Source: Trametes villosa
Lineage: Eukaryota; Basidiomycota; Agaricomycetes; Polyporales; Polyporaceae
Assembly (NCBI GenBank): GCA_002964805.2
Contig: PUDQ02000024.1
Span: forward strand, 310,001-374,000
Reading direction: 5' to 3'
DNA: 64,000 nt
The notes under the pieces were generated by a model, which saw only the letters and a list, made by a program, of their open reading frames with translations, was not told the DNA's origin and searched no databases. A program made the position numbers and the translations under genes. This document shows positions 35,729-56,465 of the stretch, in pieces. Numbering within the stretch: the first letter of the stretch is position 1; every line of letters begins with the position of its first letter.

Positions 35729-35962
35729 CTGGGGGTGCACATCTATCCGCACTCAACGAACGTGATGATGGACTAGTGAAGCTGCGTTTACACACATCAT
35801 CTCGTAAGTTCCCTGCGCTCATAGATGTGTATCCTTCTATGGGACAACTCTATATATACCAGCATCTCCGGGGGTTATACGACCGGTCACCCTGCGGTTC
35901 TGCGGATGCGTGCCCGCCGTTGCCCTCGCTGCGCGCAGCACCACCACGCCTGGGCTATAGCT

Positions 35963-36489: not shown

Positions 36490-36803
36490 CTAGTCTCCCC
36501 TATAGGCAGACGTATCCAGGTGCTCTACGAGGGGGGACGGGCACCACGAACGCCGAGGAACTTCTTCCCGACGTCGACGCGTCTCGCGGTGACGGCCTCG
36601 AGGGCTGCATATGCATATCACCTCACAGGCGAGGGCCTCTCTCGCGTCCATGCACGTCCATGGTGCAGACTCGCCCCTCGTCTGTGCACTCATCCGCCTT
36701 CTGCGTCCCTCGTTTTCACGTTTTCACTACTAAGTAGTGCCGCTCCGTCCTATTGAGTTTCCCCCGCCGTTCTCGCCCGCTCGCGTCTCCTCTGCTGCTC
36801 TCA

Positions 36804-36825
36804 CACGACGGGCATTGGCCCATAT
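36804..36825. repeat. Isolated element end nested before MITE 3
   Basis: CACGACGGGCATTGGCCCAT preceded by TCA, followed at once by a second CACGACGGGCATTGGC; looks like the remains of an earlier insertion. Confidence 0.4.
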
Positions 36826-37074
36826 CACGACGGGCATTGGCACCTATTCCGCTCCCAAAAAGGCTTGGGATAGCGCCTGAACTGTACATGTTCTCCTTTT
36901 ACCAGACTGGCTCAGGTCCGGAATCTCAGTAAGTAAATTTACTTACCGAGTAACAAACCATGTTAGAGTGGCGCTTTGTTTTCTATTGTCTGAGTTCCGC
37001 TCCGGAACAGGAGAACAGCCCAGGACATATTCCCAGCCTATTCCGGGCCCTAATACAGGCCATTGCCTGGTCTC
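36826..37074 (-). mobile_element. Small non-autonomous element (MITE 3), inverted relative to MITE 2
   Basis: Starts CACGACGGGCATTGGC; its interior read backwards matches MITE 2 (CAAAGCGCCACTCTAACATG and following). It contains a perfect 18-bp palindrome at 36929-36946 (GTAAGTAAATTTACTTAC). The right end is eroded (CCATTGCCTGGTC). It lies 13 bp left of element 2. Confidence 0.55.
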
Positions 37075-37084
37075 TGCTGTAGGC

Positions 37085-37087
37085 TCA
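37085..37087. repeat. Target site duplication (TCA), left copy
   Basis: TCA directly outside the CAC end; second copy at 56463-56465. The empty site would read GTAGGCTCATCGCTG. Confidence 0.75.
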
Positions 37088-37385
37088 CACGAGGGGCATT
37101 GGCCTATGTCCCCCTCCGGAACAGGCTAGTGACTAATTCGGTAACTGGACTCCTGTCACCGCGCTTGCTCCGGGACTGTCCAGGTCCTGAACCAGACAGC
37201 CTGCTGACGTCATTTCCAGGTCCTGTTCAGGTCCTGAGCCAGACAACCTGGTTGCGGACCGGAACAGCCGCTGAGCCAATCACAGAACAACTATCCTGCT
37301 ACGCCGCTGTTCCGATCCCGAACCAGCACCTCAACCATTATCCTGTCTCCAGACCCAGTCCCGCTTCGGAACAGGTAACCTGCTC
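37088..37385 (+). repeat. Left terminal inverted repeat of element 2
   Basis: 298 bp, identical to the reverse complement of 56165-56462. It contains several GGAACAG and AGGTCCTG motifs, also seen in the neighbouring MITEs. Confidence 0.95.
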
Positions 37386-37394
37386 CTGATAATA

Positions 37395-38110
37395 GACATA
37401 GCCTGAATATCTATCATGGTCCTGTGCCACTGCGCCGTCCGTCGTTCCCCTCGGGGTCGCGCCGTCCGCTCTCGCGCCCTCGCCACGCGCCCTCGCGCCG
37501 TCCACTCTCGCGCCACTCTCGCGCCACTCTCGCGCCCTCGCGCCGTCCGCTCTCGCGCTGTCTGCTCTCGCGCCCTCGCGACGCCCGCCCTCGCCCTCGC
37601 GCCCTTCCGCCCTCGCGCCCTTGGCCCTCACCCCCGCTCTCAGTCGCGCGCTTGCAAGTTGCAGCTCCTAGGGCCGCGAGCGAGCGAGCTCGAAAAGCTC
37701 GCTCGGCTCGAAAAGCTCCGAAAAGCTCGCGAGCTCGAAAAGCTCGCGAGCTCGAAAAGCTCGCGCTTTGTGAGAGAACACTCGAGCTCGTCAGCTCGCA
37801 CCTGAGATCGCGAGCTCGAAAAGCTCGCGAGCTCGAAAAGCTCGCGAGCTCGAAAAGCTCGCGCTTTGTGAGAGAACACTTGAGCTCGTCAGCTCGCACC
37901 TGAGCTCTGAGCTAGTCGAAGCGCGAGAAGAGCTCCGCTCTGCCAAGGCACTGGAGCTCCAAGCTCACTTTGCTCGCCTTTCCCGCTCTGTGAGCTCTGG
38001 ACATTCGGAGCTCTGCGAGCGCATCGGCTCCGAAGCTCTAGAGCTTCGCGCGTTCTGAACGACGCGTGAAAAGTATGACCTGCGCGAGCTAGGCAACTCT
38101 CCACCCCCTA
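37395..38110. repeat. Left subterminal repeat field of element 2
   Basis: First, tandem CTCTCGCGCC and CCCTCGCGCC motifs (37430-37640). Then come two copies of an 85-100 bp unit (about 37725 and 37809) built of GCGAGCTCGAAAAGCTC palindromes followed by a GTGAGAGAACACT block. GAGCTC-type motifs continue to 38040. The right end has the same GAGCTC theme, so these are likely transposase-binding arrays. Confidence 0.7.
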
Positions 38111-38125
38111 CTCGCGCTCCTCTCC

Positions 38126-41100
38126 TCACTGACGGCCGGGCTTCTTCAGCTTCACGCGCCCGCCTCCGGCGCCGCGCGCTGCACTCGCGAGCTGCTCGGG
38201 TTGCGCAGCCAGGAGGGACATTAGCATTACATAACAGACCAGTAATAGTACGATAGGATTCAACTCTGCAAAGTCATCAGTTGCGTATACAGGAGGGCTG
38301 TTTGGAAGAGGTGGACGTACACGATCGAGTGAACGTACCACGATGCAACTCTGCTTCATACCCTCCGGAACGTAGGTGAACGCGGCGAAGTGCGACTTGA
38401 TGTCGTCGCTGCGAACGATAGCCCGTTGAGGTTCAAACCGATTGTAGTGTAGACGCGTGTTGAGCAGCGGGAACTGGCGATAGGGGTCGAGTTCTGCGTG
38501 CGCGGTTGTTAATGGGGTATACTCCTCGATGACGACAAAAGGCTGGACGATACGGTCCCCCGCCGGAGCGACGCGGGAGTGAAGAAAAATCTGCACGATT
38601 TGCCCGGCGCAAACTCGTGTGGGGTCATCGGAGGCAGGATCCTTGAAGCACACGAAGGAGTTGCGGACGTGATCCGCGCGGGTTCCGTAGCTGACGCGGC
38701 CGACATCAATCTTGGTGATGGTTCGCATGCGGGGCGCGAGACGGGATCGCTGGTCTGACAGATCGGCATGATATGTAGTGAAGTCGTTGGGACCGTAGAC
38801 GGCGGAGATAAGCTTGACGAAGCCAGAGTAGGCTATACTGTCCATCCGCGTGTCGCTCAGCTTGCTGTGCATTGCGACCAGACGTTCCGCAGCCTCCGTG
38901 GTGGACGCCGGCGTGGTGCCAAAGATATCGAGCACGCGAGATCCGCGCGCTGCGTCCTTGTACGTTTTATCGAACGCCGCCAGGACTGCGTGTAGTTCCT
39001 CCGAATCCGGCCACTCCGTTGAGGACATCAACCACCGCAGCTCAGCGCCGGCGTAGAACAGGCGCATGAACGTCAAAGGGATCTCATCTGTGACATATAC
39101 GGTCAGTGCGGCTATCAAGTTGGGCGTATGCAGCTCTTACCGATGTGGTTGTTGGTATTCAGGCGCTGGATTATGCCGTTGTATCGCTCGAAAGGGTAAC
39201 CCCACCAACCACGGACGGGGCCGAACAGGAGAAGGCAGGTAGTGAGATGAAGCGAGAGATGGTGGTTCGGAACGAGGGTGTGATCGAAGAGTTCACGGAG
39301 CGTGCGCAGATATTCCGCCATGTGATAGTCGTATAGCCTAGCTCGTTCGGAGTCCATGGAACGTCGTGTCGCGAGGTCGACGGCGATGACGAGGTGAACG
39401 AAGTTCTCGAGCAGACGGCGGTCTCCGTTCGTCGCTACCGACGAAGACCATAGTCGGACGAGCGTGATGACCATGCTGATGGTGCAGGTCGTCCGCCAGT
39501 GGTCGGCCTTCAACTTTCCGTGGGAGGGGCTGCCAAAATTCGCGGGAGGACGTTCGATCCAAGACGGTAGGAACGTCGTCGACATGTCTGAACGGAGGGT
39601 TTCGATGACCTCGGACGTAAGAATCCGGAACTTGGCGATGTCGTGCTGATTGGTGGCGAGATGGAAGTCGCACGTCGGCTTTGGAAGGACAGGTGGTATG
39701 ACGAGTTGCTCGACGGAGTGCGTTTGAACCTAGCAAATGATAATGAGCGAGACATCTCCAAGTTCATATCGCAACAACTGACCCATTCCAAGAGCGTTGC
39801 CGCATACACTTTCTTGGTAACCTTCGAGGGTGGATGAATGCCGTTGATTTGAGCGAGGGCGACCAAGTATCCCTTCCGTGGTTGCATGACCGCCGAGAGA
39901 GCACCCTTGGCGAGCGAACCATCCGGTAGCACGCCCTGCCGCAGCGCCCTCACCAAGCGGGTGAGCCACTCCTCTTGTTCTGCCGGCGAGTGGGGTGTTG
40001 CCTTCGTCACCGTCACCTTGTCCTTGACGTCTATCCCCCAGACGTCCCTGCAGTGATGGCGGAGCTCTCCGAGGAAGAGGTTGTGCATGGCGTCGACTAC
40101 GGCGTAACGGGTCGGATCCCAGTAAGGCAGACGAAGGAGCTCCGACCAGCGTATGCCGTCTTCGCTGAAGAGCGCGTCGCGTTCGGTCTCGGTTTGGGCG
40201 TCCCGCCACCTAGAGGCTACGTCCAGATGCTCTTGCCAAGTACGAGATGGCCAAGGGCGAGATAGATTGTTGATCTCGCTCTTCTTGAGGAGGCAGAACG
40301 AACAGAAGTGTTTGGAGCCATGACCCGCGAAGCCGGCAGTCTTACGGAGAGCTGGAAGATCGCAGATGAGAGGGATGACGACCGCGCGGACGAGACGGCC
40401 GTTGGGATGGAGTGCTGTCCGACTGAGGTGCACTCCGGAATACCAGAGGACGAGCAGCTCGTCGATGAGAGGTCGAAGGAAGTGGTTCATCTCGTGGAGG
40501 GATGGTTCGTGGGGGCCGGGGATGATGCCGAGGAGACAGACATACTCCGGAAGAAAGCGTAACTCAGGCGGCAGGTTCAGGCATACGAGATAGATGGCGC
40601 CGATTGAACGTGATTTACCCGCTTGCTTGTTACCACCTGGGTTGAACCAGTCGATGAATAGGCCAAAGACTAGATGCACGTCGCCCCCGGTCTGAACAGA
40701 ATAGAGGTTGCCGTCTGGTCCACGGAAGCAGCGCAAGGCTGGAGACTGCAAGATATCGACATACGGAGCCCCAGGAGACGGCGTCGAATCGGACCACGCG
40801 TTCTCAACGATCTTCTCGGCCGTCGAACGCGTGAACAAATTGGCGATCCACGACACGAGGGGGCGATAGGGAAATGGGCGTAGCGGGACCCAGGTGACCC
40901 GCCCTGGGCGACGCTTGGTTGCTGGAGCGTGGACCACCTTGCGTATCAGCGGAGAGTTACATACAGGCTTGTCGGTTTCCCTGAAAGTGCAGAGCTCCGG
41001 GTAGGGTTGGTCTGGCGAGCGGAGATCGGGTGCATAGGTCTGTGAGCACGAAGGGCAAGTGGCGTAGCGGATGGTTTCGGGTTCGACCTTGAGGCGGGAG

Positions 41101-42558
41101 AGCGCCGTGCGGATATCGCGAGGGACCGAGTCGACCATCAACTGCTGCTCAGTCGTGAGTCGTGCTGACCGGGATCCCCGTCGACGAGAGCTCTTGGTCG
41201 ATGAGGAGGCGATGGCGATTAGCGGGGCCGTGGAAGGAGACGTCGTAGGGAGGCTGTTGCAGGCAATGAAAGCGCCGGTAAGGACAGCTCGGAGCATAGT
41301 CAAGACCAGATTCGAGGCGTCGGCATTCAAGCCAGAAAGTGTATGGAGGGCGCTGGTGATGAGCAAAGCCAAGAGAATGCATGGCTGGAGCGTGTGGCGC
41401 GACGTGAATAGATGTTCTGGGCGAAGCATGTCAGTTGCCGCCGCGCTCCGTACAATAGCATCACATACCCGTGCGATACACTCTGGCCACACCTGCCGTC
41501 GCCTCGTCCGCGAATCCATACAATCCCGTCAACAGCTTCTGGTGCTCCCAAGCGAAGCGCTCTTGAGATTCTAGTACGGCGAGCTCCGCAGTCACCCTTT
41601 CGACAAGCTTGCCGCGGCGGCGATCTGCATCTCTATCGCCGAGAGGGGGTAGCATGCGAAGTACGTGCCGTTTGTTCTCGAGGGAGGAGCGTAGCGCTAG
41701 GAATTGTTGGCTGTCACAACCGGCAGCGGATGGGGAGAGGTCGGCTGGAGCTTCGTCAAGAGATGATGGGGGAGATCGAAAGTTGAGCCGAGGAGCCGCC
41801 GGAGCTAGACGTAGCTCGTGGCTTAGCGTAGACTCTAGTAGGGACAGCTCCGTAATGCGCTGAGCGACCTTGTCTATCTGTGATACGGTCAGTATGTATC
41901 GCCCGATTGTGTGATTGAATCGCACCGTACCTCAGCATTCAGCTTGTTCGTTGTCGTAGAATCTACCGACGACGCTTGAGACGGGGAAGCGAGAGTGGCC
42001 ACCGGCGGGACGGCAGACGGAGGGACGAGAGGGCGTTCAGGGCCGGATGCGATTGGAACTGGAGAGGGGGACGGCGATCGAGAGGATTGAGGCGAAGAGC
42101 GTGAAGGAGAGGTACACGGGGATGGCGAGAGCGGGGGCGATGCTGGAGATGACGGCGACAGTGCAGAGGGAGGAGGGGAGGATGCGGCTCCGATGGACGA
42201 CGGTCTGTTCGGAGTCGTGTTGAGCGTGTCCTGAGAGCACGACAATCAGCCCAGGAAGACAGTGCGAGTTCTCAGGACATACCACGGCGGAACTCTCGGA
42301 TATCGTCCCAAAATCCCTCGGACGAGAAGGTAGATCATCTACTCCGCTTCCATCGTCTAGCGCAGCCACGAAAGTCGAGTAAAAGAGGTGATCTTCTTCG
42401 TCAGCGCGCAGGGCGTCATCAGCCGCGTGCTCCTTCCATTTCCTGTACTCCAATGGATAGCCTGGCACCGCGACACCATTGACCTTGTGGGTAAGAGTCT
42501 TGCACTGCGAGCACATGCATACTCGGTGCTTCTTTCCGCGGGACATCGGGTGGCTCAA
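38126..42558 (-). CDS. Tnp2-type (CACTA/EnSpm) transposase of element 2
   Basis: The start at about 42558 (MSHPMSRGKKHRVCMCSQCK, a C-x-C-x2-C cluster with later His) leads into a Ser/Pro-rich linker and a helical segment (IDKVAQRITELSLLES). The core exon 39830-41425 holds FIACNSLP, LSRLKVEPETIRYATCPSCS, the DDE-fold strand FGLFIDWFNPGGNKQAGKS, GAIYLVCLNLPPELRFLPEY, LLGIIPGPHEPSLHEMNHFL, HFCSFCLLKKSEINNL and the distal DAMHNLFLGELRHHC. Later exons read DHWRTTCTISMVITLVRLW, LYDYHMAEYLRTLRELF, GWWGYPFERYNGIIQRLNTN and the long C-terminal domain MRLFYAGAELRWLM...FAAFTYVPEGMKQSCIVVRSL, stop at 38126. This is the full order of basidiomycete Tnp2 transposases. No stop or frameshift inside. About seven exons. 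Confidence 0.85.
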
Positions 42559-42780
42559 GGGGGAACGGAAAGCAGCTAGAGGGAAGGGGCATACAAAGGG
42601 CGAAGGGCGAAGGGGGAGAGCGATGGCGCGAGCGTGTCAGTTATACGTTATTCCCGAACCGGCTTGCCTGGACGTACCTCCTGCGCGGCGGTGCTGTCAT
42701 TAATCCCAATTCGGAATCAGACGACTCGTGGTCTGGGTGTAAGAACAAGGAACAAGGGCAACCCTTTATTGCCATTCGAT

Positions 42781-43757
42781 CTACGTATCGAGATCCGCCC
42801 ACAGCGGGAATTCGTGGGTTGAAGACGAGGATGACGCGCATAGTACGGCTAACAGAGAGTGGAAGAAGACGACAAGCCAGGTATAAAGATCGGCCTGAGG
42901 AAAGGATGCGGCCAAACCGGAGAGAGCGGCACCATAGACAGTCACAGCATCAATCTGAGGGAGATAACCTGTTCAGCTGGCCAGCACTTGAGTACTAAAT
43001 GCGCCTACCTGTCTCCGTAGCTCTCCCAGTCTACCCGTGATGTAACCGTACACGCTCGCCAGTGGCTCTGCCATCCACCGACATCAGCGATGCGCGGAAA
43101 TAGGGACAGGCATCGCAATGGTAGAACACGCACCACAGATATCGGCAAGTAGCTCCATCGCGAGACGTCGGCTGCGAGCAATCAACTGCCGTTGTTTCTC
43201 CAAGTGGTCGATGAGTTCTCTCAGCCGTTGGAGGTGAGCGCAAAGGTCTCTCGTTTCTTGGTACAGTCTCGCGAGCTCGCGCTCGTACTTGTCAATCCGG
43301 CGGCGGTCGGCATCGCGTTGGGATTTGAGCAATACGAGCTCGGCGCCAAGGCCCCTCGTTTCCTCGTGCAGACTCGCGAGCTCAAGCTCGTATTGATCAA
43401 TCCGTTGGCGGTCGGCATCGCGTTGGGATTTCAGCAATGTGAGCTCGAGCTGCGATGTAACGACCTTCGAGCGAATTCCGGTCAGATGGTCTTGGGTGAC
43501 GGGGTGGTCTTGAGTGACCGGCATGTCCTGCACCTCACTAATCAATGGAGGGGCGACAGACGCAGAAAAGCGCGTACCCGTTGATTTACACCGATGAACT
43601 GACCATCGCGGCTCTCATCCACCTCCTGCGTCGTGTGCTCGCACCCGTCTGAAGCATCGCGGGGACTTTCCTTCAGCCACATGTCCGTGATCGTCGGTGA
43701 GTCTTCCGCGCCTTGGGGTGAGTGGGCTAGTTTGGGCTCAGAGGCGGATGATGTCAT
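42781..43757 (-). CDS. Coiled-coil protein of element 2, possible membrane-associated C-terminus
   Basis: From MTSSASEPKLAHSPQGAEDS the protein continues through an intron near 43580 into a long coiled coil. Two near-identical units lie in it: LKSQRDADRQRIDQYELELA and LKSQRDADRRRIDKYERELA, about 90 nt apart. After ELIDHLEKQRQLIARSRRLA come small exons reading VYGYITGRLGELRRQ, IDAVTVYGAALSGLAASFPQ and ADLYTWLVVFFHSLLAVLC, ending WADLDT at 42781. The last hydrophobic stretch could be a tail anchor or an amphipathic helix. No family recognised. It lies just upstream of the transposase on the same strand. Confidence 0.6.
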
Positions 43758-44420
43758 GTTGAGGAGGTCGTAGAGGTATACGAGGATGCGAAGACGAACG
43801 AGGACGGAAGAATGAGCAGAAGCGAGTGGCCACTAGGGAGAGAACCAGGGTATCGCGTCCGCCGAGCATTGTGCCACATCTAGCTAGCCGAAGCACGCGT
43901 CATGGAGGACAAAGAAGCCGGTCCGCGCGAGCTGGCCACAGTGCGCTCGGGCGCTGGATCCCTGAATCGGCGATCACGATCTCAGATTATGACGGCGACG
44001 ATCAGGCACCGTGCCTGGGATCAACTGGCGGCAGGCGGTATATTGAATAATATGCGGCGAATGCTGAAGGGATCCATGGATCACATCGTACGCGTCAAGA
44101 GCTCTCAAGAGCCAAACGAGGGCCATGTAATTGCAAGATACAAGATGGCAAAGACATAAGGAGACATCGGGAACGGCGAGGAGAGGCATGTATATATGTA
44201 GGCATAGGACGGGCGGGGCATAGGACGGGCGGGGCATAGGACGGGCGGGGCATAGGACGGGCGAGGCATACTAATAGAACGGGTGGGGCATAGGACGAGC
44301 GCGGGCGCATAGATGGAAGGGAGACATAGGATAGTTATGCACAGAGAGGATAGGTATGATAGAGGGAATAGGCCGTTCCGAGGAGCATTTCAACCGGGAT
44401 GTGTGGCGACGATCAGAATC
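43758..44420. other. Spacer with a minisatellite
   Basis: A plus-strand frame, 43902-44159, is open but lacks features. A 16-bp tandem repeat occupies 44200-44306. Otherwise it holds the promoter of the coiled-coil gene and the 3' flank of the LRR gene. Confidence 0.4.
44200..44306 (+). repeat. Minisatellite, 16-bp unit
   Basis: About five to six copies of GGCATAGGACGGGCGG, the last ones diverged and interrupted near 44268-44280. Confidence 0.85.
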
Positions 44421-45668
44421 TCAAAGAGTGAACGTCTGCGTACGACCGATACTGCGCGTAGCGACGCGAGACCATGCGTTTCCCGTACCTTTGAACCAGT
44501 GGCTGAGGCGTTGCCGTCCCACACCCCCTTCGTCGTCCCTCTGGATCAGAGCGATGTAGAACAGGGTGGGATGAGCGCGAACGCGGGATCCCAGCCCGCG
44601 GGCCCAACCGGTCACCACGTCCTTCTCCGTGCGGTTCCGGGAGGATACGCTAGTCAGCGTACGCAACATGAGCTCCTCGAGTTGCGGAAGCCTCATCAAA
44701 GTGAAGTGCCACGATCGGATGTCGTTCCAGGGGCGGCGCGCATGATCGTGGCGACGCTAGGAGATCGTTAGCCAAGCGGCGCGTGGGTGAGGACGACGGC
44801 ATACCTGAATACTGGGTTTCTCATTCAGCTTGAGCTTGCGCACGTTCGGGACGGCCATCGCAACGCGGTTGAGGATGTCGTAGTCGTTGGAGAAATAGTC
44901 GACAGTGAGGGAATGGAGGCGCGACGAGGACAGGGTTTGGATCGCGAGGGATGACATGGAAGCCGAGCGGGCGAGATTCACCGTCGCGGTCACCAAGCGG
45001 CCGCGAGCTATGCCGACGAAGCAGCGCGAGGGACACTGGAGGTCCGATAGGTTCGAGAACGCCATACCGTCGAGAGGGCAGCGTGCGCTGCGTCCACAAG
45101 TTCCTTGGAGGGCGATGGAGGTGAGACGCGGATGCGCGCCGAGAAAGGCCGCCAAGACACGATGGGGGAGGTTGGTTGAGAATACGCGCAAGTTCGGGAA
45201 GTGTAGGCCGTTGAGAAGCGTGACAGGAGAGTCTGCGGGGAGGTCGAGCACAAGGCACTCGAGGTTGGGGGTAAGCCGGAGCGCGACACGGAGCGCATGC
45301 GCGGGATAGCCTGCATCCCTGGGGAGCGTGATCCGGAAGTCTTCCACCACTCTGCCGATGTTCTCGTTGTAGTTTCCGAGCAGGACGAAGGTCTCCAGGC
45401 CTCCGGAAGACGCAATATTGACGTCGCGCCGAACGGGGAATGAATGCGCGCTCTATGACGGATAGTAGGTGAGTGAATTGCATAAACACGAGGCCGCGAC
45501 AGTGCTCACCATGGTCAGCGACTCGCGCCGACCGCGGCGGGTGGGACTATCATAGGCTTGATCCATAGGAGAAGGTGACGGTGCGGGGAGATGGACGGCT
45601 GGGTTGCGAGGGATGGGAGTGGTGGAGTGGTGAGTTGATACTCTCGCTGGCTGAGTGCTGAGGGCCAT
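44421..45668 (-). CDS. Leucine-rich-repeat protein of element 2 (F-box/LRR-like C-terminal type)
   Basis: A first exon, MALSTQPARVSTHHSTTPIP, ends at a Met codon before a GTGAGC donor (about 45508). The main exon then reads GLETFVLLGNYNENIGRVVE, LRVALRLTPNLECLVLDLPA, LLNGLHFPNLRVFSTNLPHR, VLAAFLGAHPRLTSIALQG, LQCPSRCFVGIARG and LHSLTVDYFSNDYDILNRVA, in LRR rhythm. The last exon gives RRPWNDIRSWHFTLMRLPQL, EELMLRTL and WARGLGSRVRAHPTLFYIAL, with the stop at 44421. Basidiomycetes carry many such proteins, often with an F-box in front; none is evident here. Related proteins recur in transposon-rich regions. Function unknown; protein binding is likely. Confidence 0.65.
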
Positions 45669-46201
45669 TTATACGCTCTCGAGTGGCGTGCTGGACGAGT
45701 GGCTCAGTGCCGGCCCATGTCTGGAGTTTTGGTTAGACTGGCCTGGCACGAGTCTGTGACAGCCTCACTATCTAGCCGAGCAGCGTTGTTCAGCGTTCAG
45801 CGTGGACCTACGGGCGCGCCCGACTCGTCTTGCCGGGCAGTTGCACCAATTCAGAACAAGAAGTAACGTGCGGTCGGTTCCATCTGTCAAATGAAGTAGT
45901 CGCCAGGCAAAGACAAAGCAGGAGTGATATAGCGCTCCGAGTAAGACGAGCGCGCGAGCAAGTCGTCGCGCACAGATCTAGAGATCGCCAGACGCAGGAG
46001 GTGCGAGGTCCGCGAAGCACTTCAGGGTCCTCATTATTAGCGCTCTGTCACCGGGCCGAGCTCGCGTGCTCCCGCGGTGCTCCTGTGTGCCTGTGCTCCC
46101 GCGCTCCGCGTCCCGCGCGGCATGCTCTTCCTCCTGTGCTCTTCTTGTCCCGCTCATCTACCGAATGCTCTTACTCTTGGCGGCGTTCTGTCAACATTGC
46201 C
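45669..46201. promoter_or_regulatory. Central divergent promoter region of element 2
   Basis: Separates the three minus-strand from the five plus-strand genes. It is pyrimidine-rich on the plus strand from 46040 to 46195, just before the WD40 start. No operator-like motif was identified. Confidence 0.4.
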
Positions 46202-47794
46202 ATGCCTCTCCAGTACCAGCAGTACCTACGGCTACTCCATCCCGACGGTCACTGTGACGCGATTACTGCTGTGGCTTTTAGCCCTGGTGGAAGTGTTCTC
46301 GCGTCCGCCAGTCTCGACGGCCGCGTTTGTATATGGGAAGTCGCCTCTGGTAAGTTACTACATGTCTTTGCTGGGAAGTCTAGTGTTCTCTCCATTGCGT
46401 GGCTCGATTCCGAAGAAACTGCGGTGTGCGGAATGGAGGACGGCACGCTCGCCTCGCTCGCGATATCTCAGGTACGTTCGGCATTACCCGCCGCACATCG
46501 TCGCGGCGACCTACGGAGACTTTGCAACTAAATTCCAGTAGAACCTCATCCGGCTGGATGGGTTCTTGGCTCATCATAGCCCTGTGGAGCACCTGGCGTA
46601 CAATGGAAAGTACTTAGCATCCGGGGCTCATAGTGAACTCAAGGTCTGGTTACGGGTTCCTGCTGGTAAGCCCCAATATACTCAAGTTGGTCCCTTGGAC
46701 TCAACCCTTCGAGTAGGATGGGTGTTAGTTTCGACTCTTCGCCCGCCTCGACGTAGCTCGTATACCACCGCATGCGATATCGTGGTCACCAGTCTACACT
46801 GGACCTCAACGTCGTCGTATCCCCTCGTCCTCCTGGTAACTTACCTGAATCACGGAATCGTGTAAGTCACCTAGCATGCGCCTTCAAGCGACACCGCTCA
46901 TTCTAGATGGTCCGTGAACTAGAGCGTTCGATGCTCGTATTTGGGCTCGCATCGGTGGTACCGCGGTACCTGGATACATGTGAGCGGCTTGCCCGGTATA
47001 GCGCTTATATACTCACACAGATGGCTTGTCAGCGCAGATGCCAGCCTGACGAGGGACGGCCGGCTTCTCGCGGTGTCGAATATGCTCACTGGTTTCGAGC
47101 TTTTCGCGTTGAAAGGCCTCGTAGAGTTGGAGCCCCTATTCGCGTTTCAACAAGACATCGCCGCGGGCCCGCCTGTTCCCGTCAGCTTCCTACACGGCGA
47201 TCATGCCATCGTTGGAGGTACTACTCGCGGACGGGTGAACGTATGGGATGTCTACTCTAGACAGAAACAGACCCTAACGCTCGAAGGTGCGTCCCGAGTT
47301 CCATAGCACGTCTCGCTGAGGTATGGTCTCTGATCGGCCCGCGCTTCAGGCGAGGTCTCCATCCTCGCGATTGCAGTGAGTACGCGGACAGTGAGGACGC
47401 GGACCCAAGCTCATCTCCACTGTTCCCCAGGCACATTACGACGAGAGCCGCGACGACTTCTACATCGCCACCGGGGTGCTCAACCGTGGCTCCCCGTGTT
47501 CCATCGTCTTGTGGAAAACACAAGAGACTCGTACGTGGGTGATCTACCGGTGCCACACTACCACTGATCCGTCGCCCGCCCAACTGTAGGAAGACAACGT
47601 ACGCCGTCTACAAGGACAAGGGCCACACGCGGCCGCCGTTCGGCTCCTGCCTCTCCGCTCTTTCGGACGCGCTGGACAAGCACAGGAATAATGGCGATCC
47701 TCGTGGTGGGAGCATGCTGGTACTACTATGGCCTACCGTATGGTGCCTCGGCCATGCGCGTGGGATGACTTGTTCAATCAATCAAACACGTTGA
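46202..47794 (+). CDS. WD40 beta-propeller protein of element 2
   Basis: The start at 46202 opens MPLQYQQYLRLLHPDGHCDA. The first blade is clear: AITAVAFSPGGSVLASASLD, GRVCIWEVASGKLLHVF, followed by VLSIAWLDSEETAVCGMEDG. Next exons read LDGFLAHHSPVEHLAYNGKY, LASGAHSELKVWLR, then CDIVVTSLHWTSTSSYPLVL, WLVSADASLTRDGRLLAVSN, DHAIVGGTTRGRVNVWDVYS, AHYDESRDDFYIATGVLNRG and IVLWKTQET, giving five to seven blades. Introns are short, and one acceptor (near 46923) was chosen to keep the frame. It ends LLWPTVWCLGHARG and TCSINQTR. A scaffold role is likely; the partner is unknown. Related WD40 proteins are seen near agaricomycete transposons. Confidence 0.7.
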
Positions 47795-47962
47795 AGCTGT
47801 GGCGTCTCCGTGTCGCATAGGGCCCCTGGAGCTCTCCCCTTGTGCAACTTCTGGTAATTGGGACCCGAAACAACATCGTGACATAAGCGGTGGCTGCGGC
47901 GATGAATCGGCGAGCCGATAACACGGTCGCCCGAGGGCACGAACGACTCGCGAGCCTGAGCC

Positions 47963-49203
47963 ATGGAGGCCCTCTCAACGGTGTCACTGCCATTCGTCTG
48001 CGTCGTCCTCGCTGCACTACTCACCACCTATCTCGCCGTATACCAATGCCTGTGGCGACAACCTATCCCCCCTAAGGCCGACTACGCCTTCTCGGCATCC
48101 ACGATCGTCCGTCGTCGGCCTCCTACTGTCTTACAATTCGCTCCTCGTGTCCCCCCGGGTAGCGGCGCTACGCCGATGGTACTCCGGGTACTCACCCCCG
48201 AGCCAACCTTCCGGTGAGTTTGCGGCTCACCTTCGTACATGGAGAATGTCACTAAATCATGTTTTTCAGTAGTATCAAGGAAGAGAATCCCCCCGGTCGG
48301 CCACATTCGAAGGGGATCTTGACACGGTCGTCTTCCTCGGCGCTAACCGAAGACGCCATGGATGCGAGCGGATCTTCGTCGTCGCCCGCTCCGTCGCCCC
48401 CATCTCCAACCACGCCTCTGCCGCCAGTGTCATCGGCCTTCAGTCGCGCGAGTTCAGTGATACTGGCTGGACCGTCCTTCCGGCAACCTAGTGGCGAGCA
48501 CTTGCGAAGAGGAAACTCCATGCCATCCTCCAACGAGCGACAAGCGCGTAACGTACAGAGCAAACCTCCCGCTTCGAAGCGTATCACGAGGTCCAGCTCG
48601 AAGGCGTCGCTATCACAGGATGTAGGCTCAAGCTCCGCCCTGCCCTTCTCTCCACCCTCTCCGGTGGCGAACACGGATGCTAATGCGGTCAGGAAACTTA
48701 CACGTACATTCATCCCATCACTCTAACATTGCTGACGTCCGTACCCAGGTGATGCTCAAGCGTATGAAAAATCCCATCCGAATCAACACCAAACACGACA
48801 TGTCTCAACACCGTCAATACACTTGGTGGTTCGAAACCGCGTCAGACGCTGCGATTGCGGGCCCGCCTGTCCTTCACCCAGCATGTGGCCTCCAGCGCGG
48901 CGACCTTTTTTGGCACAAAGCTCCGAGTATCTTCCAGCTCTGGTTGCGAGTCAAGGACGAGGTTACCGGGCAAGACGTCTGGCAAGCTATCGAGGTGGGA
49001 CACGTGCGCGAAGACGGCCGCAAGCTTACCGTTACCCTGAAGAAACACGTTCTTTCGTGGGTGGGAGGGGACTGGGGATCCAGGCGCGTATACTCATGTA
49101 CGTATCTCTCGAATGTTGTCGGATGTACTACTAACTAACGGCTTACTCGGATGCAGTGGACCGTGAGCACTGGGCGACGTCGCGCGAGCGGTCGGGGAGT
49201 TAG
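47963..49203 (+). CDS. Single-pass membrane protein of element 2, function unknown
   Basis: The first exon opens MEALSTVSLPFVCVVLAALL and TTYLAVYQCLW, a signal-anchor helix. A Ser/Pro-rich disordered exon follows (48269-48690, GILTRSSSSALTEDAMDAS and on). The third exon is the folded part: VMLKRMKNPIRINTKHDMSQ, YTWWFETASDAAIAGPP, GLQRGDLFWHKAPSIFQLWL, RVKDEVTGQDVWQAIEVGHV and KLTVTLKKHVLSWVGGDWG. A last short exon reads LDREHWATSRERSGS and stops at 49203. The folded region is beta-rich with many Trp residues. I do not recognise the family. It lies between the WD40 and SUN genes on the same strand. Confidence 0.6.
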
Positions 49204-49455
49204 GCCTTTGGAGTAGATACAGTGTATACTTGTCGTACATGGAGAATACGTGCAACGTAATATGATACAGGCGTGATAGATTATCGCGCGAGTGCGGCCG
49301 CTGGAGACTTGGGACCAGCATGGTGCGCGGTGGCGGCGCAATGCCACTCCGGGCGCTCTTCGTAATCAAGCGCCCATGAGCCGTCATTGCCCACGCGATG
49401 TTTCTTCTCTACCGCGTCCAACATCCAGCAACACTATACCTCACCCTCATAACCT

Positions 49456-50520
49456 ATGGCTACACCCCGCGAGTCGCCGTTCAACGGCAGCAGATTTGCG
49501 CTGCGCGATGATTCCCGAACGTGGCCAAACGATTCAAATCGTAAGTATGCCGGTTACTTCCAACCGCGGCAATCGGACGATGCTAACCCTCCCCCGCGCA
49601 CGCCGCACCTAGAGCCTCGCAAATTGCTGCGTTTCGCTTCTACAGACTCCGTGTCCTCTGACAGGGATGAGTCTGAACTACCCCATCCCTCCATCTCTCA
49701 CTCTAGTCGCCTCACTTTCTATCTCCCTGCTACGCTCGCCCTCGCGCTGTTCGCCATGGCCCTGGCAGCTCATCTTGTACGGCCTCCTCACCCTCACCCG
49801 ACCACACCCAACATGTCCCGTCTGGCGAACCTCTCTTCATACTTCGGCTGGCCCTCTCAAGCTACCGAGCCTCAAGTCCTGACGCCTGCTATGAGGAGCG
49901 CCATCGAGGAAATCGTCCGTGCAAATCTTCGCGCTCACGACATATCGCGACGGGGCCCGCCTGATTACGCCCTTCACGCCCATGGCGCGCGAGTAGCCAT
50001 GAAGCTCACGTCCGGGACGTCTGGTGTGTTCTCTTCGCGAGAGGACGACCCGAGCGTCGCTATCAGCGACGACGTCCACGCTGGACGTTGTTGGAGCGTC
50101 CAGACCTTACCTTCTCAGCTAGGTATCCGGCTTCCACGCATGCTCTACCCGACGCATTTCTCCATAGAACATCTCTCCGCGGAAGTATCGGTGGACGTCG
50201 GACAGGCTCCGAAGAACATCAAGATCTGGGGGATGGTAGACGGCGTCCGCAACAAGGAGGCCTTTGCAGCCCTCGTCGCGTCGGGCTTACCTGGATTCGA
50301 CGAGCAGGCTCCGCCCATTGCCAAGGGTCTGCTTTGGGCCCCTCTAGCGACCTTCATGTACGACATCCACGGCGACAACCCGGTTCAAGTCTTCCCCGTC
50401 TCCCGGGCGTACACCGACAGCAAGCTCTCGTTCGGCGTCGTCGCTGTCGGGCTCATGGACAATTGGGGTGCTAACACGACCTGCTTATATCGCGTACGAG
50501 TACACGGGACCCCGGTTTAA
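49456..50520 (+). CDS. SUN-domain protein (Sad1/UNC-84 type) of element 2
   Basis: A single open frame of 354 residues. The N-terminus is a short Ser/Pro-rich nucleoplasmic-type segment (FRSSRL-like, with LLRFASTDSVSSDRDE), then one membrane helix (LTFYLPATLALALFAMALAA). After a linker helix (LTPAMRSAIEEIVRANLRAH) the SUN domain begins: PDYALHAHGARVAMKLTSGT, DVHAGRCWSVQTLPSQLGIR, LPRMLYPTHFSIEHLSAEVS, VDVGQAPKNIKIWGMVDG, VFPVSRAYTDSKLSFGVVAV, MDNWGANTTCLYRVRVHGTP. The order and the final C-L-Y-R-V-R-V-H-G are as in fungal SUN proteins, which sit in the inner nuclear membrane and link chromatin to KASH partners. Agaricomycetes have many such paralogues. Its presence inside a transposon is notable. 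Confidence 0.85.
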   Translation: MATPRESPFNGSRFALRDDSRTWPNDSNRKYAGYFQPRQSDDANPPPRTPHLEPRKLLRFASTDSVSSDRDESELPHPSISHSSRLTFYLPATLALALFAMALAAHLVRPPHPHPTTPNMSRLANLSSYFGWPSQATEPQVLTPAMRSAIEEIVRANLRAHDISRRGPPDYALHAHGARVAMKLTSGTSGVFSSREDDPSVAISDDVHAGRCWSVQTLPSQLGIRLPRMLYPTHFSIEHLSAEVSVDVGQAPKNIKIWGMVDGVRNKEAFAALVASGLPGFDEQAPPIAKGLLWAPLATFMYDIHGDNPVQVFPVSRAYTDSKLSFGVVAVGLMDNWGANTTCLYRVRVHGTPV

Positions 50521-50981
50521 TGCTACGGTCGGTGCAGTACTTTGTGCACCCGCCGTCCTGTGAGCTCACGACGCCCGTGTTGCAGATGTACCTTCATAGC
50601 TATCACAGCCCGCCATGTAGTATACCCAGACCGCATGAATTCTAACGTCGCGCTGCCGTAGCTTTTACTCGTATCCATGGTCTGCGGTACGTGGCTCTGA
50701 AGAGCAAACACGCGCTTTGACGTAGCGCCTGTGCCACTCGGCGCATGTACAATGCGCCGTGGCTCATTGTACCCAACTTGGGTTGGGCCACAATTCTGAC
50801 GTGCCGCGCGACAGACGATCAAGTCAGCTTGAGGTGCGCGCGACGCCTTTCTTCCTCCTTCCACCACTGCGTGCACGCCACTCGCTTCCCTCCGCCTCTG
50901 GTAGGCGTTCCGTCCCCTCACGACAAGCATCCCCATCGAACGACCCCTCTCGGCCTCGCGAGACACGCCTGCACGTACACC
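50521..50981. other. Spacer between SUN and coiled-coil genes
   Basis: 3' flank and promoter; no gene seen. Confidence 0.4.
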
Positions 50982-53900
50982 ATGTCGATTAACGACCATC
51001 GTCTTCATCAAGCTGCTGGTCAGGCCCCCCATGCCCAGCGTGTGTCTGCAGGCAGCACATCACAACCACACCAGGTGCGTCACGACTAGCTCTGTTCAAA
51101 CTCACTTCGTAACGATGTGTCTAGGCCACGGTGCTTGCAGCAGGAATGCAGCACCCACACGGGTTTCCCCCGGTTTTCCCGTCATCGCGTCCCCCATCAC
51201 CTCGACTCCTCTCGACCCCTGCCACGGTACCGCTATCCTCTCCACAGCGCCTCGGTCGCCAACCGTCCTTCCGTGTGGATCCGCAGCCGCCTCATCCTCA
51301 CAGACCTCAGCCTATCCAGCGTGGGCCGTCGTTCACAATCCAGCTCCCGCCGGCGCCGCAAGATGCGCTTCGGCACCCTCCTCCACAGCACTTCGATCCA
51401 CAAAGCCTGTTCGCCGAGGCGGGTCGGTTCTTCCAGGACCCTGACCAGCGTTGGCACGCTCTCCGCGAAGAAGAGATGCGTCGGCAGGCTTCCGGCGTTG
51501 GGGCGGTGCGGCAACTAGCTCTTCGCGCAGAGGAGACGCATCGTCAGGCACTCCGAGACGAAGCTCGCCAGCAACGCTATCGAGAACTCGAAGCAGAGAT
51601 TCACCGACCGCACGCGGAAGCTCTCCTACGTGCTGTCCCCGCCGCACATCCCGCACCCCACTGGGATGCCACCGCCGAGAGACAGATACGTCAGATGCGT
51701 CAGCGGGCACTTCTGGACGACGAGGTGCGCCGGCAGGCGCCGGTCGACGCGATCGCTCAACGTCGAGCCGAGGAGGAAGCGCGCCGACAGGCTGCTCTCG
51801 ACGAAGAGTTGCGTCAGCGAGCTCTGTTTGCAGAGCACGCACGTCGACAGGCTGTCGCCGACGAGGCAGCACGCCGACGGGCGATGGCCGAGGAAGAACT
51901 ACGACAGCGAGAGGCTCTCGAGGCACAAGCACGTCGGCAGGCTGTCGCCGACGAGGATGCACGCCGACGAGCGATGGCCGAGGAAGAACTACGACAGCGA
52001 GAGGCTCTCGAGGTACAAGCACGTCGGCAGGCTGTCGCCGACGAGGAAGCACGCCGACGGGCGAGAGCCGAGGAAGAACTGCGACAGCGAGACGCGCTCG
52101 AGGCACAAGCACGGCAGTGGGCCGTCGATCAAGAGCTGCGCCGGCAGGCGGAGGGGGAAACACGTCGGAGGGAAGCCCTTGACGAGGAGTTGCGAGAGGT
52201 AGAACGTCTTCGCCCTGAAGACGTCACCGAGGATCAAATCGAGGAGGACTTCGTTCTAGGACACCTCGGGTCGGTACACGACGACGACGACGACGACCCC
52301 ATGTCCGAACCTCCTCGCACAACGACGTCGACACCTTCCCGCTCGACGTCGAACCGGTCACGCGAACCATCCCCGGACACCGTCAAGGATCCAGCCCCGC
52401 CCTCGACGCCGCCAAGACCCACCTCTCGCTCAGCAGCATCGTCCATTAGATGGATGTCGGTCAGCCCGCTGCCGTCGCCTGCTAGAACCCCGCGCCCCCT
52501 TGACGACGCACCACGGCTTCCGATACCGGACGATTTCAGCGCACCGGAACCCGTCACCACGCCACCCAAGCCGATCCTAACGGATAGTGCACCTTCCTCG
52601 TCGACCGAGCAGAACCATTACCGCGTACCATCGCCCAAATTCGACCACGCCCCGAGTCCCTCGCCTGGAAAGGTAAGTCTTTGCGTCACGAGCACGCCGA
52701 AGCAGGCGACTGAACTGTTTAATCATCTAGGATAACTCTGCACAGTTCATGGCGCTACTTCTGCGCCAGAACGAACAGATGTCGCAACTGATGCAAACGT
52801 TGGTAGTACAAAACCAAGAGCTACAGTACGTGGTAGTACGAGTATGATGCCGATGCATGCGCTAAAACCCCTCTTCAGGTCTGTTCTTACTAGTCAGTTC
52901 ACCGAGCTCGCGGCGCGTCTTGACACGATCAAGACGCCGCATGCCGAGCGAGAAAGCGCCGCGGACGCACTCGACGACGAGGTGGAAGCGGATGAGGGCG
53001 ACGAGGCGGATGACGAGGTCGCGGAGGGCGACCTCCGTGTGCGCTCCCGTAAGAAGCGGCCGCAGATGGACGCCCTCAAGGATCCCAGGAACAGAGAGGG
53101 CGTCCGAGCACTGCAGGTAAGAGGCCCCCACGCTGGACCAGCTCATTACTTACCATACCCCAAGGCGTGCGTCCGCAAGCATTTGCTGACACTGTGCCAC
53201 GCCGAGTCCATGGACGAGCTTGTCGAGAATAACCCCCCAATCACGGACGAGGAGATGACCAACTTCCTAGCCGGCGACGAGGACATGCTAGCATGCACGG
53301 TCCAGTCCTTCCGCATCGACTTCCAGCGATCTTGGAAAGAGAACGGCTTCAATCGCCTAGCCAATCATGTCTTCTGCGACAGCTTGATCAAGATGTACAA
53401 GGGCGGAGACTATTCCGACCACGACATCCCCAGCGTCCTTCTCACGGAGCGATACATCAGCAAAGTCCTGTATCAGCACATGGATTACCGACGGAAGTTG
53501 TACAAGCAGCACTTCAACCCGCTGAGCAAGGAAGTGCAGGACAAAATCAAGCAGCGGAAAGCAATGAACGCGCGCAGGGGCACGGTAAGTTCGTCATACG
53601 ATCTTCTAAACCGATCGCTAATACGTCCCAGCTTCGCAACAGTCGCGTACACGTCATTCTGGTGTTCAAGCTTGAGCACAAGCGTCTTTTCCTCAAGCTC
53701 AAGCCGATTCACATGAGCGGTGACGAGACGGACGGGGATGAGAAGGAGCACCCGCCGAAGTTCCGCATCGTGGAAGCTCGGTGGCAGAGCTTAGCTCTCA
53801 AGCTCTTCCTGCGAGCGCTCGACGTGTTGTACCGGGAGTGCTGGTCTAAGCCAGTAGGCGAGCGCGCGAAACCGGGGAACGCACCCCGCGACCGCGTCGA

Positions 53901-54093
53901 GCGCGAAAATCCGCGCGTCGAAGACGGACCCGCACCAATCGGCCTTTGGAGGAACTGTTACGACCAGGACTGGTTGAAGTCGCTGCGTCCGCACGAACGC
54001 GAGTCCTTGAAGATCATCGACAAGGACTACGTCTTTACGCTGCCCCCTCCGAGGCCGAAGACTAAGCAGCAAGCCACGCCCCAGAAGCAGTAA
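50982..54093 (+). CDS. Large coiled-coil protein with conserved C-terminal domain, element 2
   Basis: The first exon MSINDHRLHQAAGQAPHAQR joins at 51124 to a long exon. A Pro-rich head is followed by about 300 residues of Arg/Glu/Ala-rich coiled coil, including three near-identical 30-residue units (ARRQAVADE, RRRAMAEEELRQREAL). An acidic then Ser/Pro-rich stretch (DDDDDPMSEPPRTTT) leads to MALLLRQNEQMSQLMQTLVV. The C-terminal third is RSRKKRPQMDALKDPRNREG, ACVRKHLLTLCHAESMDELV, EDMLACTVQSFRIDFQRSWK, YISKVLYQHMDYRRKLYKQH, FRIVEARWQSLALKLFLRAL, and CYDQDWLKSLRPHERESL. This last part resembles a domain carried by many agaricomycete transposon proteins and usually lacking a name. Six or seven exons, stop at 54093. 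Probably a nuclear structural or regulatory factor. Confidence 0.65.
51833..52108 (+). repeat. In-frame tandem repeat, 90-bp unit
   Basis: Three consecutive copies encode (E)(H/A/V)(Q)ARRQAVADE(A/D/E)ARRRA(M/R)AEEELRQR(E/D)AL; a fourth is diverged. Confidence 0.85.
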
Positions 54094-54766
54094 GCGGAGG
54101 CGCGTTCTCTCCCGAGCGCGCGTTCACTTTTCACCGTTGTCTCTGCACCTCTCCCCGCATCTCCGGCTCCCCGTCTCCTTGCATTCTCGTACCATATCCC
54201 TCACTTCGCCCCCGCGCGCTCTCGCGCGTCCTTGTTATCGCTCCCGCGCTCTCTCTCCCGCGCGCACTCCAGCGCCTGTTTGGCGCTTACCTCTCTCCCC
54301 CTCTCTCTCGCGTTCCCCCGTCGTCCACAACCGCCGGCCACCGTTAAACTCAAGCACGCTCCCTTCTACACCCCAACACCCCAACACTCGCTCCATTTTC
54401 TCTCTCTCAGCCCTCTCTCCATCGCCTCCCCGTTGTCTCTCCCCGTCGTTTCTCCCGGTCGTCTCCCGGGGTCGTCTCTCGTCTACTTCTCCCCTCCTCG
54501 CGCGTCCCTCGTCGTCACCTCTCCCCGTCTCCTCCTGGGATCGTCTCTCGCCGTCGTCGTCGTCGCCGCACGCAGTCGACTCTCGCCGCCGCGTCCTGGC
54601 CCGTCGGCCTCTCGTCTACTTCTCTCCCCGTCGCGCGTCCCTCGTCGTCACCTCTCTCCGTCACCTCCTGGGATCGTCTCTCGTCGTCTTCGCCGTCGTC
54701 GCCGCACGCATTCGACTCTCGCCGCCGCGTCTTGGCCCGTTCCATCCTTTTCAACACCAGTCCCCG
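54094..54766. other. Pyrimidine-rich spacer containing a tandem duplication
   Basis: Strongly C/T-rich plus strand. Two copies of about 126-136 bp (roughly 54479-54605 and 54606-54741) share CTCGTCTACTTCTC, GCGCGTCCCTCGTCGTCACC and CGACTCTCGCCGCCGCGTC. It is the promoter or leader of the next gene. Open frames here reflect composition, not coding. Confidence 0.6.
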
Positions 54767-55257
54767 ATGCCTCTCAGCTCCTCCTCGCGCGACGTACGTC
54801 CTTCATCCATATGTCGAACTCAGGGCTGACGATTTCACAGGTCATGCTGTCCCTGTTCAAGGGGGATGCTCGCTACACCTTCCACTGGCAGGACTTTAAC
54901 AGCGTGAGCCCGTCGCGTCTCGGTCGATTCCATACTAACGTCCTGCAGGCCATGGCGGAGCTTGAGTTCAAGATGGTAGGGAAGGGGATTCTATGCGGGT
55001 ATCGCATTCCAGGGTACTTGGGAAGGGGCAGGGTCGTGATTCACAGGGTGAGTATTGCTTCATACTCGTTTGTCGATGTCGCTAACACTCCCATCAGGGT
55101 CATGCCGGTCCCATGGAAAAACATCATCAAGACAAGTATGTATTCATCCCACATGCTATAGGATTCGCCACTAATGCGACTCATCAGCATCAAGCGGCGG
55201 CTTTCGCGCAGGTTTGGCTGGGACAAGGACACCTTTGCCGAGGGCGGCCGATTCTGA
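54767..55257 (+). CDS. Small basic protein of element 2, transposon-associated
   Basis: MPLSSSSRD in the first exon joins (54840) to VMLSLFKGDARYTFHWQDFN and ALQAMAELEFKMVGKGILCG-like sequence (as read: VLQAMAELEFKMVGKGILCG), YRIPGYLGRGRVVIHRGHAG, PMEKHHQDNIKRRLSRRFGW and DKDTFAEGGRF with the stop at 55255-55257. The exons have GT/AG ends at about 54796, 55048 and 55136. Roughly 120 residues. The G-H-x-G-P-M-x-K-x-H signature with a following basic helix recurs in small proteins of agaricomycete mobile elements; function unknown. Position next to the right end suggests a terminus-binding or regulatory role, an inference only. Confidence 0.6.
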
Positions 55258-56164
55258 ACCGATCTTGTGTGCATAACGAGTGCGTACTCTTGGAGCTGTG
55301 GCATACGAATACACGATGTTTCATTGGACGAGCGAGGGCGAGGCGAAGTGTGTGATTGGCACCTGCCATCCCCTCTCTTCGTGCTGGGTTCGCCGGATAT
55401 CGAACTCGAGCTCAAGTAGCTCGTGCGTGCGCTAAGTTCTGGCGAGCTCATAGCTTCGTCGTGAGCGCCCCGAGCTTCGCGAGCTCGGAGTGTGGAACCT
55501 TGAGAGAGCTCGTTCTGAGCTCGTTCACTGACGTGCGCACTCGAAGCTCGCGAGCTCGAAGTCAGGGGCTTCGGCAAGCTAGGAGCTCGGTAGTGCTCAT
55601 CAGAAGCTCGGGCAAGAGAGCTCTGCGCACACAGAGCTCCGGAAATGTGCGCACTAGGTATGCTGTGTGGGTGGCCGAGCTCCGGGGAGGCACATGAGCT
55701 CGCGTACGAGCTCCGGAGAGGCACTCGAGCTCGCGCACGAGCTCCGGTGAGGCACACGAGCTCCGGGGGGAAAAGCGCGAGCTGAACGAGCTCCGGTGAG
55801 GCACACGAGCTCCGGGGGGCAAAGCGCGAGCTGAAGCGCTTACAAGCGCAACAAGCGCATATGAGCTCGCGAGCTCGCGCGCGGGCCCGTAGGAAGTGCT
55901 GGACGGATTTTTGCGCGCGTCCGGACGGATGGTTGCGCGCGTATATGGACGGATGCGCGCACGAATGGGTCTGCGAGTGCGCGTGCGGCAACAGAATCTG
56001 TGTGCGCGCGCGCGAGCGCGGGCACGGGGCGGCAGTTCGCCAGGTCGCGGCGCAGAGCGGTCACTCGATAGCTGGACTGTGGAGGCACGGCGGGCAATAA
56101 CTAGCTATGTCGACGAAGAGCAGGTTACATGTTGCGGGAATGTTCGTTTGGTAGCTACGGGAGC
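55258..56164. repeat. Right subterminal repeat field of element 2
   Basis: From about 55385 to 55880, GAGCTCG, GCGAGCTC and GAGCTCCGG motifs occur every 10-30 bp, including tandem 40-bp units near 55735-55835 (GAGCTCCGGTGAGGCACACG). From 55880 to 56030 follow CGCGCG-rich motifs. It mirrors the left field in theme though not in exact sequence. Confidence 0.65.
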
Positions 56165-56462
56165 GAGCAGGTTACCTGTTCCGAAGCGGGACTGGGTCTG
56201 GAGACAGGATAATGGTTGAGGTGCTGGTTCGGGATCGGAACAGCGGCGTAGCAGGATAGTTGTTCTGTGATTGGCTCAGCGGCTGTTCCGGTCCGCAACC
56301 AGGTTGTCTGGCTCAGGACCTGAACAGGACCTGGAAATGACGTCAGCAGGCTGTCTGGTTCAGGACCTGGACAGTCCCGGAGCAAGCGCGGTGACAGGAG
56401 TCCAGTTACCGAATTAGTCACTAGCCTGTTCCGGAGGGGGACATAGGCCAATGCCCCTCGTG
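56165..56462 (-). repeat. Right terminal inverted repeat of element 2
   Basis: 298 bp, the inverted partner of 37088-37385, with no difference found. Confidence 0.95.
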
Positions 56463-56465
56463 TCA
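56463..56465. repeat. Target site duplication (TCA), right copy
   Basis: Direct copy of 37085-37087. Confidence 0.75.

Follow-up and report, generated by a model that had tools for sequence, protein, structure and literature searches.

A large DNA transposon of the CACTA (EnSpm) class was analyzed in the genome of the polypore Trametes villosa, within a 64,000-nucleotide stretch of contig PUDQ02000024.1 (C24:310001-374000), hereafter called the window. The element occupies window positions 37088-56462 (19,375 bp in total) and carries a gene for a Tnp2 transposase (g1) together with seven further gene models (g2-g8), among them genes for a WD40 protein (g4) and a SUN-domain protein (g6). The original prediction, made from the window sequence without database searches, had described a recently moved CACTA element with identical 298-bp inverted repeats, TCA on both flanks, a complete-looking Tnp2 and seven further genes. 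The repeats, the flanking TCA, the class and the gene count were all borne out, and the completeness of the transposase and the recent move gained support, the latter from the identity of the repeats. The comparison was extended to the whole T. villosa assembly (46.7 Mb in 140 contigs) and to proteins of other Polyporales.

Ends and class of the element

The left terminal inverted repeat (TIR; 37088-37385, plus strand) begins with CACGAGGGGCATTGG and is repeated without change in the right TIR (56165-56462, minus strand), the two arms being 100% complementary across 298 bp; such a perfect inverted pair is far beyond chance. An inverted-pair scan gives 299 rather than 298 bp, because the flanking A/T pair is complementary as well. 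The trinucleotide TCA adjoins both ends, at 37085-37087 on the left and 56463-56465 on the right, and was read directly from the sequence as the target-site duplication.

According to PMC12730594, CACTA/EnSpm elements are recognized by CAC..GTG ends, a 3-bp duplication and a Tnp2 transposase with characteristic acidic residues and motifs. The 5'-CAC...GTG-3' termini read CACGAGGGGC in the window, CACGACGCGC in a related element on contig C1, CACGGCAAAC in another on C3, and again CACGAGGGGC in sequences on C5 and C65 that look like the halves of one element. A 3-bp duplication was found in three of the four elements with both ends seen (TCA, CAC and ATT). The conserved transposase residues, namely the D of IDWFNP, the D of CDLPA and the CSxC motif, are present in 17 of 17 own-genome rows of an alignment that left out an eighteenth strong match, L018; a candidate last E (PFER) and an H(3)H motif (HLSLH) were picked out by eye, and only in the models of the window and C1. 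Subterminal repeats are another trait of CACTA elements. The motif CGGAACAG occurs four times in the 298-bp left TIR versus once in the other 62,179 bp of the window, a count that omits the right TIR, the 38 bp following it and the flank to the left (35901-37087), which contains related repeats and two more such motifs. Short direct repeats of two families (D2 and D5), detected by a repeat scan, lie just inside the left TIR at 37457-37862. By its ends, duplication and transposase, the element is a member of the CACTA/EnSpm class. It was apparently inserted recently and appears to be autonomous; the signs of transposition that can be read from the sequence are indirect, and consist of the perfect TIRs and the copies at several loci. 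The empty site was sought in this assembly and no empty allele was found, because the 1 kb to the right of the element has no second full copy (the sole further match is 71% identical over 232 bp) and the left flank is repetitive.

Genes were modelled from open reading frames (ORFs) conserved with the co-linear relative on C1, together with a small self-made splice model. As a result, eight genes were obtained, of which g1-g3 lie on the minus strand and g4-g8 on the plus strand. Pfam scans covered 30 of the 82 ORFs of at least 100 aa overlapping 36000-57500, the main gene-model exons among them (25 of 34 families in the case of the WD40 ORF), and assigned Transposase_21 to g1, WD40 to g4 and Sad1_UNC to g6; no family was found in g3 or in the scanned homologues of g5 and g7.

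The transposase gene g1 (38126-42546, minus strand) was modelled with seven exons and ~1,340 aa, free of internal stops, with conserved D, D and C(2)C positions. Its ORF at 39513-41528 matches Transposase_21/Tnp2 (PF02992) with an E-value of 3.1e-16, and the following exon resembles DUF4218 weakly (21.6 bits versus the Pfam cut-off of 27). The C-terminus is uncertain; conservation with the C1 copy is absent in the last stretch, below 38318.

The SUN gene g6 (49456-50520, plus strand; exons 49456-49540 and 49613-50520) encodes 330 aa, a model supported by full-length homologues (328-332 aa) that share its N-terminus. A single strong hydrophobic segment (residues 66-84), the predicted membrane segment, precedes a C-terminal SUN domain (PF07738). 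A profile of the family matches SUN1 and SUN2 chains of known structure with E-values down to 1e-32, the helix before the domain included. The SUN motifs are largely kept (the Cys of GxCW, EH, AP, NWG and TCLYR.RxHG); all 20 aligned rows have the GxCW Cys, and the second Cys is nearly invariant. The closest named SUN proteins are those of Trametes meyenii (61% identity), T. cingulata (56%) and Pilatotrama ljubarskyi (55%).

The gene g2 (42781-43757, minus strand) encodes a coiled-coil protein (264 aa in the model with the highest intron cost, one of those tried), in which a hydrophobic stretch is followed by the C-terminal tail EFPLWADLDT. The tail is kept in all three copies seen, which end in HEFPLWADLDT (window), EEFPLWANLDT (C5) and HEFPLWADL (C1), while the coiled-coil part is less conserved, with pieces of 26-53% identity between the window and C1.

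The remaining models are as follows: g3 (44421-45566, minus strand) encodes a conserved protein of 346 aa, leucine-rich in our impression. The WD40 gene g4 (46202-47534, plus strand) has an uncertain 3' end, its model extending to 47857. The gene g5 (47963-49203, plus strand), whose exons were placed by eye from reading frames and homologues, encodes an N-terminal hydrophobic segment, a serine-rich linker and a conserved C-terminal domain of 116 aa, for which mostly strands are predicted (model pLDDT, predicted local distance difference test, 85) and for which a fold search gave no PDB match at E<=0.001. The gene g7 (51031-54093, plus strand; N-terminus uncertain) encodes an N-terminal coiled coil and repeats, and its C-terminal part is conserved; a fold search with its T. 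meyenii homologue (P0044) gave no PDB match at the same threshold, the model (pLDDT 53) being too poor for use. Among the copies examined, the short gene g8 (54767-55257, plus strand) has a conserved counterpart only in that of C65. In Lentinus brumalis, protein P0055 has ~270 extra residues, without a Pfam match, ahead of its g5-like part; they are possibly another element gene fused by annotation.

A family of elements with a conserved gene order

Searches of the assembly returned 5 matches for the TIR, 54 for Tnp2, 9 for g3, 35 for g4 (many of them weak WD40 matches), 16 for g5, 16 for SUN and 21 for g7. Gene order was compared for the 18 strong Tnp2 matches, all matches of g3, g5 and g6, 20 of the 21 g7 matches and 14 of the 35 WD40 matches (the 13 best and a weaker one on C99 near Tnp2, two slightly better ones elsewhere being omitted). 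The order and strand Tnp2(-) g3(-) g4(+) g5(+) g6(+) g7(+) are identical in C24, C1, C3, C18 and C47. On C5 the same order is followed up to g6, and the conserved end of g7 lies on C65; C88 has the core set with g3 displaced. Looser or partial sets are found on C116, C106, C100, C20, C10, C99 and C111, only g3 and g4 on C40, and none of g3-g7 near the matches on C92, C9 or the second Tnp2 match of C1. At least one of g3-g7 lies within 30 kb of 15 of the 18 strong Tnp2 matches. Ten of 16 SUN matches fall within 30 kb of a strong Tnp2 match, compared with 0.37 expected under even placement. The further copies for which the original prediction had proposed a search thus exist in the same genome, with their own TIRs where ends are readable; as for the gene content among copies, the core order is kept in several elements, whereas other copies are partial or looser.

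The relatives on C1 and C3 have both ends on one contig. The C1 element (C1:5722603-5741219, 18.6 kb) is co-linear with that of the window, the pieces that match being 65-80% identical in DNA sequence, and its TIRs are 98.9% identical over 931 columns. The C3 element (C3:2675367-2700649, 25,283 bp) has an exact 1,475-bp TIR and a CAC/CAC duplication. A further element looks to be split between two contigs: the end regions on C5 (end at 73012) and C65 (end at 10374) are 95.9% alike over 911 columns with ATT on both sides, the gene contents are complementary, and a 380-bp stretch, 99.7% identical, is shared at the break inside g7 (C5:38702-39081 and C65:6787-7166). The contig starts face each other, so a large insert would lie between the halves, beyond both starts. 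The Tnp2 gene of C5 is interrupted by ~18 kb.

The SUN and Tnp2 genes appear to have been inherited together. Both trees group (C24,C5)+C1, C47+C88, C3+C18 and C116+C106, the last with support of 92/96 in the SUN tree and 100/100 in the Tnp2 tree. Additional members differ: in the SUN tree C47+C88 is joined by C114, which has no Tnp2 match, and C3+C18 is joined by C72 in the SUN tree and by C40 in the Tnp2 tree. SUN and Tnp2 distances are correlated across ten elements (Mantel r 0.77) and remain so without the far-off C20 (r 0.79), with 0 of 5,000 permutations as high in either case. The ratio of nonsynonymous to synonymous substitutions (dN/dS), computed by the Nei-Gojobori method (NG86) with several rows near synonymous saturation, is 0.05-0.33 in 11 of 13 comparisons, indicating purifying selection. 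Between the window and C5 it is 0.08 for Tnp2 and 0.14 for SUN; the values are 0.12 for g3, 0.05-0.26 for g4, 0.15-0.22 for g5 and 0.21-0.33 for g7. The two other rows were dropped as invalid, namely Tnp2 exon 3 between the window and C1 (1.26, from an out-of-frame cut) and g2 (6 codons).

Traces of the same set are seen in other Polyporales. SUN and g5 or g7 lie on shared or equal-sized contigs in T. cingulata, Pilatotrama, T. sanguinea and T. meyenii, that is, in four of the seven species with both; the SUN and g5 locus tags of T. cingulata are consecutive, and in T. pubescens the model P0006 fuses SUN to a g4-like end. The T. villosa SUN copies do not form one clade: those of C24 and C5 group with T. 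meyenii and Lenzites (100/99), and that of C1 with T. cinnabarina, T. sanguinea and T. versicolor (94/83). This grouping with different species suggests that the lineages predate the species or have crossed between them.

We therefore consider it very probable that the window element belongs to an old fungal CACTA family with a fixed multi-gene core of Tnp2, g3, WD40 (g4), a predicted membrane-anchored protein (g5), SUN (g6) and g7; g2 is present as well in the three copies in which it could be looked for. Because the set is shared, in order, with elements of the same genome, its genes belong to the core of the element and are not a load picked up by chance. The prediction had called them a very large cargo for the class, which is the wrong frame in that they are a conserved set in these elements and large multi-gene CACTA elements are on record. 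A soybean CACTA element of 20.5 kb has been described (PMC2613891), and En/Spm families of the red alga Chondrus crispus reach 16-20 kb with 4-5 ORFs (Kojima et al. 2013, cited in PMC6431247) and are likewise large, multi-ORF EnSpm elements.

Possible roles of the accessory genes

Selection as measured by dN/dS, the order kept beside the transposase and the agreement of the SUN tree make it probable that the accessory genes serve the propagation of the element itself. As a whole, the data somewhat favor an autonomous CACTA lineage in which the accessory genes would serve the element, probably at the nuclear envelope. In the proposed mechanism, Tnp2 would cut and paste the element at its CAC..GTG ends, creating the 3-bp duplications; g6 would be anchored in the inner nuclear membrane, its SUN domain facing the lumen; and g2, with its coiled coil and conserved hydrophobic tail, may be a KASH-like partner of g6. 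KASH proteins have a short conserved tail after a membrane segment, at the very C-terminus, and the layout of g2 resembles this. The two proteins could then form a bridge like the linker of nucleoskeleton and cytoskeleton (LINC) complex. In multinucleate or dikaryotic mycelium, where a cell has several nuclei, such a bridge could position or move the element or its carrier nuclei, or bias how these nuclei move. The bridge is speculative, and we regard it as rather doubtful.

Several observations weigh against the favored reading. Eight of the 18 strong Tnp2 matches have no SUN match within 30 kb, so SUN must be missing, diverged or off the contig there, and several of the relatives' Tnp2 frames contain stops, implying that part of the family has decayed. 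In three of the seven species with both genes (Lenzites, T. pubescens and L. brumalis), SUN and g5 or g7 lie on contigs of differing size. The C1 element is flanked by TCC and TAT, with no matching duplication. C33 begins inside a copy of this element (99.85% identical over 3,888 bp) with a different flank at its end; that end (position 7500) matches the C1 TIR at 95% across 700 columns, and its flank ATA equals TAT in the C1 orientation, so that the flanks of the two copies look exchanged. A crossover between the C1 and C33 copies, or a misjoin, would explain the missing duplication.

Other points concern the LINC-like pair. Like SUN-KASH complexes, the element combines a hydrophobic segment and a canonical SUN domain (g6) with a coiled coil, a hydrophobic stretch and a C-terminal tail (g2); unlike them, these proteins are transposon-encoded, the SUN domain is ~10 residues shorter than that of SUN2, in the loop before the GxCW strand, and g2 ends in EFPLWADLDT, not in PPPX, the metazoan KASH ending. 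Moreover, g2 was examined in three elements only (window, C5 and C1), its last exon varies with the splice-model setting, and, of the two copies scored for hydropathy (for C5 the tail only was seen), that of the window passed the 19-residue cut-off and that of C1 failed it. Because of this failure the LINC-like pair is a lead, not a result.

A possible alternative, on which we place as little reliance as on the bridge, is that the SUN protein acts alone, for instance by displacing the host SUN or by altering nuclear movement or silencing, and that g2 is unrelated. The SUN domain is clear, whereas the link of g2 to KASH consists of layout and tail conservation; on the other side, the hydrophobic segments in g5, g6 and the window g2 fit a membrane complex better. 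We find it unlikely that the accessory genes are passenger cargo, captured from the host, possibly useful to the fungus and unconnected with transposition. In favor of this, gene carriage by large elements is on record (PMC6431247). To our knowledge, CACTA movement involves neither SUN nor WD40 proteins. A load acquired by chance would, however, be expected to vary between elements, whereas the same genes are found here in the same order although the SUN proteins are only ~30-40% identical between elements, and the distances and trees of SUN and Tnp2 agree.

The other two explanations are very improbable and were rejected. The gene-like quality of the insert is all that would favor a resident host gene cluster lying by chance between transposon ends; the block recurs at other loci, of which C1, C3 and the split C5/C65 have TIRs of their own and the latter two also 3-bp duplications, which speaks against resident genes. 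Size and gene number would suit an integrated virus or another large mobile element, either a Starship or Maverick-like, yet the element has Tnp2 and CACTA ends, and no tyrosine recombinase, capsid or polymerase family was found in the 30 of 82 ORFs scanned with Pfam. Starships with captain genes do exist in a basidiomycete (PMC13066641) and are likewise large, gene-carrying fungal mobile elements, but the captain is a tyrosine recombinase, not Tnp2.

Among known systems, the window element resembles the CACTA/EnSpm elements of plants and fungi (the CMC/CMCT group) in its Tnp2 with C(2)C, CAC..GTG ends and 3-bp duplication (PMC12730594), and differs from the usual elements with 1-2 ORFs (PMC6431247) by its eight gene models and conserved SUN/WD40 core. 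Fungal transposons with TET/JBP genes (Kyakuja, Zisupton, EnSpm, Plavaka and others) are similar as DNA transposons with an accessory gene thought to help the element, but those described carry one epigenetic gene (PMC12730594); the main text of that article contains "SUN" twice, both times in an author name, and no TET/JBP dioxygenase family was detected in the same 30 of 82 ORFs. No SUN-bearing transposon was found in the open-licence literature searched. The CACTA class and large multi-ORF EnSpm elements are thus known, and the unusual feature is the gene set with a SUN protein.

In the usual picture, a DNA transposon is a transposase flanked by two ends. If the favored reading of an autonomous lineage with long-conserved accessory genes is true, such CACTA elements can develop into systems of several genes, with possible effects on the architecture or movement of nuclei; the bridge, if real, would make this a selfish element acting on nuclear positioning. 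The genes g6 and g2 offer a concrete, testable pair. The results also suggest that a number of polypore "SUN domain-containing protein" entries are transposon genes.

Other SUN genes and flanking repeats

Some SUN matches in the assembly stand apart. The match at 4.94 Mb of C1 lacks a g5 or g7 match within 30 kb, its nearest strong Tnp2 match being ~57 kb off, and it may be the host's own Sad1. C74 has a SUN gene of a different make. On C20, two nearly identical SUN genes (632988-633554 and 938929-939495) lie ~306 kb from each other in opposite orientation, within a long open frame of 586 aa, and the tree groups them with a SUN protein sourced from the Joint Genome Institute (JGI), P0028.

To the left of the element, a ~245-bp repeat whose ends resemble those of the element (CACGACGGGCATTGG) is present as an inverted pair at window positions 36246-37069, and the target duplication of the 19.4-kb element begins 15 bp beside this pair. 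Matches of 83-94% to the repeat occur on C82, C10, C32, C3, C39 and C58; the repeats are probably small non-autonomous derivatives moved by the same or a sister family. Elsewhere in the window, positions 19001-20000 have a G+C content of 74% and a GC skew of -0.36, the extreme of the window.

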